A stretch of DNA of 34,050 bases from Betaproteobacteria bacterium. GTDB lineage: Bacteria > Pseudomonadota > Gammaproteobacteria > Burkholderiales > SG8-39. Positions 10,977 to 13,126 of the stretch are shown one piece after another. A program made the translations under genes and the position numbers. Under the pieces are notes generated by a model. The model ran no database searches. It had not been told where the DNA came from and saw nothing but the letters and a program-made list of their open reading frames with translations. The stretch spans positions 1-34,050 of the forward strand of contig JACPRN010000238.1 in the NCBI GenBank assembly GCA_016189945.1, given 5' to 3'. How positions within the stretch are numbered: position 1 is the stretch's first letter; every line of letters begins with the position of its first letter.

Positions 10977-11672
10977 TTGCGCCGATTCTGGAAGCTCTGC
11001 CGTTACGCGGTCCTGGCGCTGGTTGCGGCGCTTGCGGTCTACGAAGGATGGGTCCTCGCGCGCATCGCCTGGTGGATCGAGCATGATCCGGGCGCGACGC
11101 CCCTGATGGCGCGGCGCGCCGACGAGCTGCGCAGCCGCGGCTCGAAAACGGCCATCGAGCACCGCTGGATACGCTACGAGCGCATTTCGGCAAACCTGAA
11201 ACGCGCCATCGTCGTGGCCGAAGACGCGAAGTTCCTCGACCACGAGGGCTTCGATTGGGCCGGCATTCAGCAGGCGATGGAAAAGAACCGCAAGCGGGGA
11301 AAAATCGTCGCCGGCGGCTCGACCATCACGCAGCAACTGGCGAAGAACCTGTTCTTGTCGAGCGAGCGCTCGCTCGCGCGCAAGGCCCAGGAAACGCTCA
11401 TCACGGTCGCGCTCGAGGCGCTGATGAGCAAGCGGCGCATCCTCGAGATCTATCTCAACGTGGCCGAATGGGGCGAAGGGATCTTCGGCGCCGAAGCCGC
11501 GGCGCGACATTATTTCGGCGTTGGCGCGGGAGCCCTGTCCGCGGAGCAGGCGGCGCGCCTGGCGGCGATGCTGCCGCGGCCGCGCTATTACGAGCGCAAC
11601 CGCGGTTCGATTTATCTGGCGCAGTACGCGCAGAGGATCCTTGCGCGCTTGCCCTCGGCGCAGGTTCCCTGA
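10977..11672 (+). CDS. mtgA: Monofunctional biosynthetic peptidoglycan transglycosylase (TTG start)
   Basis: AIVVAEDAKFLDHEGFDWAGIQQAMEKN, GGSTITQQLAKNLFLSSERSLARKAQE, EIYLNVAEWGEGIFGAEAAARHYFG. Confidence 0.95.
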   Translation: MRRFWKLCRYAVLALVAALAVYEGWVLARIAWWIEHDPGATPLMARRADELRSRGSKTAIEHRWIRYERISANLKRAIVVAEDAKFLDHEGFDWAGIQQAMEKNRKRGKIVAGGSTITQQLAKNLFLSSERSLARKAQETLITVALEALMSKRRILEIYLNVAEWGEGIFGAEAAARHYFGVGAGALSAEQAARLAAMLPRPRYYERNRGSIYLAQYAQRILARLPSAQVP

Positions 11673-11715
11673 GGGCGATGAGCCGAAATCCGCGCTGGTT
11701 TTGCCGTTAATCAAA

Positions 11716-11762
11716 CTCCATGCTTTTGCGCAGTTGCAAAGCAACTGCGCAAAAGCATGGAG
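11716..11762. repeat. Perfect 22-bp inverted repeat with 3-nt spacer (CTCCATGCTTTTGCGCAGTTGC-AAA-GCAACTGCGCAAAAGCATGGAG)
   Basis: Read directly; every arm position is complementary. Lies between the convergent mtgA (+) and MFS (-) genes. Confidence 0.95.
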
Positions 11763-11815
11763 ACGTATTGAAAGACAAATTCTCTCCACTTCGTCAACAC
11801 TCCTCCGCCAAGCGC

Positions 11816-13126
11816 CTAAGCGCGCGAATCAGGCCCGTCCGCGCTCATCGCCGCCGCGCGCCCGCGCTCCGCGTCGATGCCGGCGAGGAGCGCCAGCCCG
11901 ACGAGAAAATAGCTGCCGGTGACCAGCATCGCCAGGCGGTGGTTGCCCTGGGAAACCCAGGTTGCCAGACCGTAGGTGATCGGGCCGAGGATCGAAGAGA
12001 GCTTCACCGCAAGACCCCAGAGCCCGAAGAATTCGGCGTGCCGGTCCGGCGGCGTCAGGTAGCCGACCAGCGCGCGTCCGGCCGATTGCGAGGACCCGAG
12101 GCACAATCCGGCGCAGTTGGCCGCCAGCCAGAACAGCGCGCGCGATTCAGCGAACCAGGCCAGGAACACGGTTGCGATCCACCCGAGCAGCGTGAGCGCA
12201 ATGGTGGGTACGTGTCCCAGGCGATCCTGCACCTGGCCGAACAGGAGCGCTCCGATGGCGGCGGTGACATTGACCGCGAGGATCAGCACGATCGAGTCGC
12301 GCGCCGAAAATCCCATGGCCTGCTGCGCATATACCGCGGCGATCGCGATGACGGCCTGCACGCCGGCCTGGTAGAACACAAGGCAGAGGAGAAATCGGCC
12401 GAGATCGCGGTACTTGGCCGCGTGCGCGATGGTGTAGGCGACGCGCGCGTAAGCGCCGCGAAGCGCGCGCGCGGCCGCAGCGCCCTGCTGCGGCGTGGCG
12501 CGCTCGCGCAGCAGCAGGAACGTGGGTAGGCTCGCCAGGGCGAACATCGCGGCGGTGATCAGCATGGTCACCGGGACAAATGACGCGGCGGGCTCGCCAA
12601 GCGCCTGCGCGCGCTCCACGTAGGCGAGGCAAAGCGCAAGGGTCGCGAGCCCGCCGACATAGCCCAAGCTCCAGCCCCAGCCGGAGACGCGCCCGAGCGC
12701 CGATCCCTTCGCCAGCTCGGGCAGGAACGCCGCAGCCAGATTCTCGCCGGTGCCGAAAAAGAAATTCGACAGCGCGACAAGCGACACCGCCAGGGCAACG
12801 TTTCCCGGGCCCACCAGCGCGAGAGCCGCGGTAAAGACGACGCAGCCCGCGGTGCTCGCCGCAAGCAGGCGTTTCTTCGCCGCGCGCAGATCGGCGTAGG
12901 CGCCCACGAGGGGAGCGGTGGCGATGATGGCGACGTAGGAAAGCGCCAGCGTCGCCGCCCAGGCAAACGTGGCCCAGGGCTGGTTGGCGGCGACCGCGGA
13001 GACGAAATAGGCGTTGAACACCGCGGTGATGACCACGGTGGTGTAGCCCGAATTGGCAAAATCGTACATCGCCCATGCGAACACCTCGCGGCGGCGCGGT
13101 TCGTCCTTGTGTCTTGGCGCTTGCAT
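11816..13126 (-). CDS. UMF1-family MFS transporter (Atg22-like)
   Basis: FAWAMYDFANSGYTTVVITAVFNAYFV, multiple TM segments, LGSSQSAGRALVGYLTPPDRHAEFFGLWGLAVKLSSILGPITYG. Confidence 0.9.
   Translation of the reverse strand: MQAPRHKDEPRRREVFAWAMYDFANSGYTTVVITAVFNAYFVSAVAANQPWATFAWAATLALSYVAIIATAPLVGAYADLRAAKKRLLAASTAGCVVFTAALALVGPGNVALAVSLVALSNFFFGTGENLAAAFLPELAKGSALGRVSGWGWSLGYVGGLATLALCLAYVERAQALGEPAASFVPVTMLITAAMFALASLPTFLLLRERATPQQGAAAARALRGAYARVAYTIAHAAKYRDLGRFLLCLVFYQAGVQAVIAIAAVYAQQAMGFSARDSIVLILAVNVTAAIGALLFGQVQDRLGHVPTIALTLLGWIATVFLAWFAESRALFWLAANCAGLCLGSSQSAGRALVGYLTPPDRHAEFFGLWGLAVKLSSILGPITYGLATWVSQGNHRLAMLVTGSYFLVGLALLAGIDAERGRAAAMSADGPDSRA

Follow-up and report, generated by a model that had tools for sequence, protein, structure and literature searches.

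The window, meaning the whole stretch of 34,050 nt that was analysed, holds a long palindrome in the gap between two convergent genes, mtgA and an MFS transporter gene. As an initial annotation of this DNA had claimed, the arms of 22 nt each are 100% complementary around the loop AAA. This perfect 22-bp stem is real and far beyond chance, with a predicted fold of -44.9 kcal/mol where shuffled sequences average -22.4 (z -7.0). It is the sole perfect long inverted repeat within the window, which holds no second copy of the hairpin, in agreement with the earlier reading. The stem is followed by ACGTATTG on the + side and by TTTGATTA on the - side; neither flank had been considered a convincing U-tract, a judgement that holds, and copies average about 3 T in 8. 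The - side, with 5 T in 8, was listed as terminator-like by a loose scan and represents the upper end of the family for T, and some weak termination there is conceivable.

The hairpin forms the central part of an oriented, non-coding repeat of 152 bp that fills the gap between the two genes, as outlined in Table 1. Alignments of copies reveal conserved sequence for about 48 to 57 nt beyond the stem on each side, in one orientation. In a young subfamily of G002, a same-genus MAG (JACQTO01, Betaproteobacteria NC_groundwater_1413), the ends of conservation are sharp (CCTAAGCCGGACGAGCCGGAACCAAGGAAGCTGG-TTTTGCCGTTTATCAATCTCCCC...GGGGAGACG-AATTTAGAAACCAAATCTTCGCCAAATTTGTCAACAGTAAACTTGTAAGTGACTAA). 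The repeat ends, CCTAAGCCGG and AAGTGACTAA, are not inverted repeats of each other. The parts that stay fixed are the flanks, the stem foot (TCTCC/GGAGA) and the apex (GTTGC/GCAAC in the window's genus), and the stems of copies are mostly 21 to 25 bp with loops mostly of 2 nt.

Table 1 Features of the repeat copy and its neighbouring genes in the window. A1, alignment within G000, the window's own genome.
Feature	Positions	Strand	Basis
Whole repeat copy, 152 bp, CCTGA (consensus CCTAA) to CCTAA (consensus GACTAA)	11668..11819	+	Alignment with consensus CCTAAGCCGGACGAGCCGGAACC...GTAAGTGACTAA; sharp end of conservation in young G002 copies
Left flank with conserved box GGTTTTGCCGTTAATCAA(T/A)	11668..11715	+	Alignment A1, pattern searches, flank scoring in other species and genera
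Left arm of palindrome, CTCCATGCTTTTGCGCAGTTGC	11716..11737	+	Arm found in the window copy only
Loop AAA	11738..11740	.	Loops of other copies occur with the reverse complement at similar frequency
Right arm of palindrome, GCAACTGCGCAAAAGCATGGAG	11741..11762	+	Complementarity to left arm
Right flank, ACGTATTGAAAGACAAATTCTCTCC...AAGCGCCTAA	11763..11819	+	Alignment A1, consensus
mtgA stop codon TGA, inside the repeat's left terminal pentamer	11670..11672	+	Left-side stop distances cluster 44-48 nt from stem
MFS gene stop codon TAG, inside the repeat's right terminal CTAA	11816..11818	-	Right-side stop distances cluster 54-56 nt
mtgA, monofunctional transglycosylase, ends at repeat	10977..11672	+	Pfam PF00912, E 1.9e-54
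MFS / Atg22-like transporter gene, convergent, ends at repeat	11816..13126	-	Pfam PF11700 and PF07690

A dispersed palindrome of REP or MITE type was among the options initially proposed, and it is supported by the many intergenic copies that a search of the genome, the check suggested at the time, brought up, by a patchy occurrence in relatives and by orthologous sites that lack young copies. The window's own genome is a MAG of 3.55 Mb in 328 contigs, 80% complete. Allowing up to 3 mismatches to the arm gave 20 matches there, every one part of a hairpin's two halves, and a looser pattern gave about 48 hairpins. From regions of this genome 54 hairpin copies were extracted, and later searches added others (C11, C145, C8, C107, C108, C77:12078 and C281:4714), for a total of at least 60, mostly intergenic. 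G002 holds more than 100 copies, most of them fetched via a left-flank pattern, a route that biases the sampling of retention rates and of copies without a hairpin.

A covariance model of the stem plus flanks (R1) matches in 30 of the 98 genomes of the family and in 13 of its 26 genera, including G001 and G003, the other two genomes of the same genus. A restriction to two species, drawn from a plain sequence pattern, was therefore wrong. Across 300 genomes sampled from the order only 2 match, both in the same family, and about 290 genomes that belong to other families yielded no instance of the R1 architecture; within the genomes sampled, the repeat is confined to one betaproteobacterial family. 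The R1 matches inspected have differing, mostly perfect stems of 21 to 27 pairs (e.g., TCTCCCGATTTCGGGAAGTTGC, TCGCCGCCTTTCCGCGAGGTCGCC and TCTCCCGAGTTTGCGTCCGGGCG) within a shared frame, TTTTGccTTTcATCAA-TCTCC...GGAGA-C..ATAtAAAcCCAAAtTC, and among 25 hairpins taken from other species and genera, 17 have flanks whose score exceeds that of 99.9% of random positions. No match to the repeat was found in plasmids (blastn) or in IMG/VR (pattern search), and Rfam returned nothing above the gathering score, with only sub-threshold hairpin matches, mostly to microRNA models. The left-flank pattern also has matches in unrelated taxa, among them Vibrio, Zoogloea and Clostridia, but these lack a hairpin and are chance. 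In G026, hairpins that are perfect or nearly so form clusters of as many as four (L302:822-1233 and L301:970-3277), spaced about 110 to 130 nt apart; their orientation alternates, as do two stem types, and the arrangement recalls REP clusters (BIMEs). Another motif, GTTGCAAAATGAATTTTGCAACGGCCCGATATAGGGGAG, recurs at several places in G017, G025 and G001 and probably represents a separate repeat family.

Using a simple codon-based gene finder, the 51 copies with two neighbours fall into 37 tandem, 11 convergent and 3 divergent contexts, compared with 167 tandem, 30 convergent and 29 divergent pairs in the background of neighbouring genes (n=226), so that divergent placement stands at 3/51 versus 29/226. 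Across two genomes, a coding stop lies within 160 nt in 76 of 84 copies, and the commonest stop distances (left side 44-48 nt, right side 54-56 nt) are those of the repeat's own terminal CTAA motifs; the repeat ends can thus supply the stop codon. Copies are mostly intergenic and 3' of genes, in both orientations, and with their rarity between divergent genes this is a REP-like position. The place behind genes seems somewhat better explained by tolerance of insertion there, or by entry at CTAA or stop-codon-like sites, than by a needed terminator.

Comparing gene pairs between G000 and G002 can reveal how individual copies have fared. The hairpin is kept in both genomes at five orthologous sites (L058:3001, L058:6725, L080, L058:10440 and L070:9971) and has been lost or replaced at four others (window/L115, L073/L152, L064/L231 and L086/L207). 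Relics occur in which the flanks persist without the hairpin. At the mtgA site, for instance, G002 keeps the left box GCTTGGTTTTGCCGTTA and no hairpin, and none is present in G001 or G003. Conserved pairing between the same genes had been suggested as a sign of a terminator; this was not seen at the mtgA-MFS site, where the closest relative has lost the hairpin, and it did appear at the five other sites, which kept the hairpin with compensated changes. Young G002 copies are absent at several orthologous G000 sites (L192, L242, L149 and L108:1965), and therefore the repeat moves. The family is both inherited and mobile, and old copies often lose the hairpin. Mobility is based here on absence at orthologous sites together with a young, homogeneous subfamily, neither a transposase nor a clear target-site duplication having been found. 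CTAA stands at both repeat ends, and the cleanest empty site (L192/L262) has CTTAG, which would agree with a target duplication as well as with simple insertion. Y1_Tnp domains are present in G000 to G003, and no copy was found nearby at seven such loci, searched for about 1.5 kb on each side in these fragmented MAGs.

A second subfamily (CTCGTGTTTTCGCGC...CACGAG) occurs at L083:683, L083:4846, L075:4726 and L069:5722 and has GCCGGATTNNTCGCCGGAATCGTCAA as a differing right flank, related to the sequence that stands without a hairpin at the G002 mtgA site. One copy in the window's genome (G000:C145:1190-1251) is of the young G002 type (CTCCCCTTTTCGTGC...), which suggests recent transfer, a shared active lineage or MAG contamination. 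At L222:3636, L229 (reverse strand, about 1581) and L192 (about 1576), the hairpins are interrupted by another repeat with AAAATGGGGTCAGAGTAAC(A/T)TTTCC or a close variant.

The two arms of the palindrome change together. Most arms are private to one copy (43/54 in G000 and 59/104 in G002), yet nearly every stem is perfect. Comparison of the five G000-G002 ortholog pairs gives 15 double substitutions plus 6 symmetric indels of a single pair, with 0 mismatches in the ten hairpins; the two arms thus co-change at orthologous sites. These orthologous arms differ by scattered single pairs rather than by whole-arm replacement, and 9 of the 10 have no other carrier among the sampled copies of the same genome, the exception being L080. 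In an alignment of 35 sequences from two species (A2), 99.2% of cells are paired and 13 of the 22 pairs vary, each on both sides, with 98 doubly changed cells versus 1 changed on one side; cells changed on both sides number 17 +/- 3 in shuffles and no more than 9 in slid versions. The same two-sided variation is seen within G000 in A1. Since arms are also shared by descent, paralog counts such as these are not independent events. G-U pairs are rare, occurring in 1 of 768 A2 cells; the 54 G000 copies have 10 GU and 6 AC among 1134 pairs, and when pairs are oriented by transcript in tandem contexts there are 2 GU and 5 AC of 777. Loops appear in both orientations at similar frequency in oriented G002 copies (AA 34/TT 27, AC 6/GT 9 and GA 6/TC 4), and two orthologous pairs have TT versus AA. 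Symmetric variants of stem length are also found among paralogs. Homogenised arms and inverted loops are the pattern of template-switched inverted repeats.

Taken together, the hairpin is best read as the core of a single copy of a dispersed repeat, about 150 bp long, that is non-coding and non-autonomous, has its place behind genes and is REP- or MITE-like in behaviour, a reading to which we assign a probability of roughly 0.8. Its arms are probably kept perfect at the DNA level by template switching, judging from the patterns between two species and among paralogs. Replication, or the processing of a hairpin or cruciform, would switch template at the long palindrome and one arm would be recopied from the other, a process that would also invert the loop. 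Template switching is known to homogenise the arms of inverted repeats and to invert spacers (PMC8604942), and a role in the origin and upkeep of hairpins has been proposed for it (PMC8794818). As the means of upkeep it is favoured because the scarcity of G-U, the symmetric indels and the loop inversion would all be explained by it. Such copying need not imply a host function, and part of the pattern could also arise if Watson-Crick pairing, in DNA or RNA, were under very strong selection. On a rival reading the hairpin would be an RNA element acting at the 3' ends of mRNAs (an exonuclease barrier, an RNase III site or a Rho-linked end), its stem kept by selection for RNA pairing. The 3' location, a perfect duplex of at least 22 bp and covariation at every variable pair of A2 would all suit it. 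We consider it unlikely because under RNA selection one would expect G-U intermediates, no sensitivity to single-pair indels and loops that keep their orientation, and the data are opposite on all three: RNA pairing tolerates G-U, yet a single A2 cell has it and GU does not outnumber AC in the transcript, symmetric indels of one base within a 22-bp stem would make no difference to RNA, and an inversion of the loop has no RNA reason. The persistence of hairpin-less relics also counts against it. Some 3'-end role of the window's hairpin other than intrinsic termination, such as that of an RNase barrier or a Rho-linked end, is conceivable.

Explanations that invoke termination, recombination or a dedicated enzyme must be weighed as well. 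The unusual bidirectional terminator of the initial annotation would be an intrinsic (Rho-independent) one, shared by convergent genes and multiplied for working well. Copies do lie directly behind stop codons, between convergent or tandem and rarely between divergent genes, the stem is very stable and the - side of the window copy is comparatively rich in T. The GC-rich stem followed by a U-tract that defines such terminators was not found, however, and it is the family's lack of a U-tract on either strand (median 3 T in 8 over 74 to 75 copies, a run of 4 at most) that makes an intrinsic terminator very improbable; G-U is not favoured over A-C in the transcript, the same gene pair stands without the hairpin in G001, G002 and G003, and the flanks of about 50 nt per side are conserved too. 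A protein-binding site had also been offered, and a dimeric one is unlikely because the arm sequence varies freely, which leaves recognition of the hairpin by its shape as something that may occur. Ectopic gene conversion, in which copies swap whole hairpins for another perfect one, could draw on the many similar copies and on one hybrid stem, L164:293 in G002, whose left arm is of the CTCCCC subfamily and whose right arm and flank come from the CTCGTG/CACGAG subfamily, which looks like the product of recombination between two copies within the hairpin. It is nonetheless improbable as the general explanation, given how many arms are private, how few orthologous arms have another carrier and how single-pair differences are scattered between them. 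Simple copying of ready-made stems is excluded because orthologous sites show double substitutions and symmetric indels and no mismatch. Two further candidates were rejected. Uptake-sequence pairs, as in Neisseria, were dismissed when the first pattern searches found the arm almost only as both hairpin halves. Integron attC sites were dismissed with no attC-type R/L boxes seen and the copies being dispersed singletons.

How the repeat moves is a separate matter from how its arms are kept perfect. A HUH (Y1) single-strand transposase that reads the shape of the hairpin and places the repeat beside CTAA, as happens with IS200/IS605 and REPs, would concern movement and be compatible with upkeep by template switching, and it is a possible, if somewhat doubtful, candidate. 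The repeat has no terminal inverted repeats, CTAA and stop codons stand at its ends and Y1 domains exist in G000 to G003. On the other hand, no copy lies close to any of the examined Y1 genes, such genes are common, and those of G000 differ from those of G002. IS200/IS605 elements also have two end hairpins, unlike the single central hairpin of the repeat. More speculative, and rather unlikely, is a family-wide class of mobile repeats in which the hairpin would be recognised by shape alone, with the stem sequence nearly free, its perfection renewed by arm-to-arm copying and only the flanks, stem foot and apex fixed; the copying might even be part of the element's own single-strand or hairpin cycle.

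A functional RNA helix is conventionally proved by compensatory changes. In the present case textbook compensation runs through an entire repeat family, with the marks of DNA copying, namely Watson-Crick pairs only, symmetric indels and inverted loops. The family can serve as a natural test bed for template switching versus RNA selection, and as a caution when RNAs are sought by covariation. To a groundwater betaproteobacterial lineage it further contributes a REP-like class of elements with unusually long perfect palindromes, and it raises the question of which enzyme moves the repeat.

Among known systems, REPs are the closest in behaviour. These comprise the superfamilies GTAG and CGTC, and REP ends that supply stop codons have been described (PMC3733652). 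Like them, the repeat is a dispersed, oriented, non-coding palindrome behind genes, between convergent or tandem and rarely divergent ORFs, with stop-supplying ends, restriction to a family and 20 to over 100 copies (PMC3733652). Unlike them, it has a stem of 21 to 26 bp rather than 5 to 13 and a unit of about 150 bp rather than 20 to 40, and G-T pairs, frequent in GTAG REP stems, are nearly absent from its own (PMC3733652). It has no conserved GTAG at the foot of its stem of about 22 bp, where GTAG REPs pair the tag with a 5- to 13-bp stem, and no RAYT (Y1 transposase) gene flanked by repeats was found at the seven Y1_Tnp loci of G000 to G003, in fragmented MAGs. The CGTC tag, which should be unpaired at one stem end, is matched in part: reversed copies read ACGTC-TCC with the last C in the paired stem, and many copies have GACC, GACA or GACT at this position. 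CGTC REPs have stems of 8 to 9 bp, loops of 4 to 5 nt and a CCA tail, and assignment to this superfamily fails on stem length (mostly 21 to 25 bp, with loops mostly of 2 nt), tag and tail. The repeat is REP/MITE-like in behaviour and fails REP membership on stem length, tag and RAYT. Palindromes of the form CGTCATTCCCGCG.../...CGCGGGAATC at L112 and L266, in the same genus, resemble CGTC-tagged REPs.

MITE-like bacterial repeats include ERIC and Correia. As in these and in RU, the repeat belongs to a size class of 100 to 170 bp, is intergenic and non-autonomous, and has young and old subfamilies; unlike them, it lacks terminal inverted repeats, its palindrome is central and no TA or other duplication is proven. 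RU is presented as a MITE-like bacterial repeat in PMC2759123. The CTAA at both ends of our repeat, in ends that are not inverted repeats, would suit a HUH-type enzyme, with no linked gene in support. PATEs, derivatives of IS200/IS605, have ends without inverted repeats, a fixed terminal tetramer and a hairpin. The repeat shares all three, and differs in having one central hairpin where PATEs have one per end and in having no TnpA found adjacent to it. In the homogenisation of its arms and the inversion of its spacer it resembles template-switch (quasipalindrome) homogenisation at short inverted repeats (PMC8604942, PMC8794818 and, for E. coli, PMC7202029). Those works treat single sites, coding genes or rRNA, whereas here the process would apparently extend to a whole dispersed repeat family, symmetric indels included.
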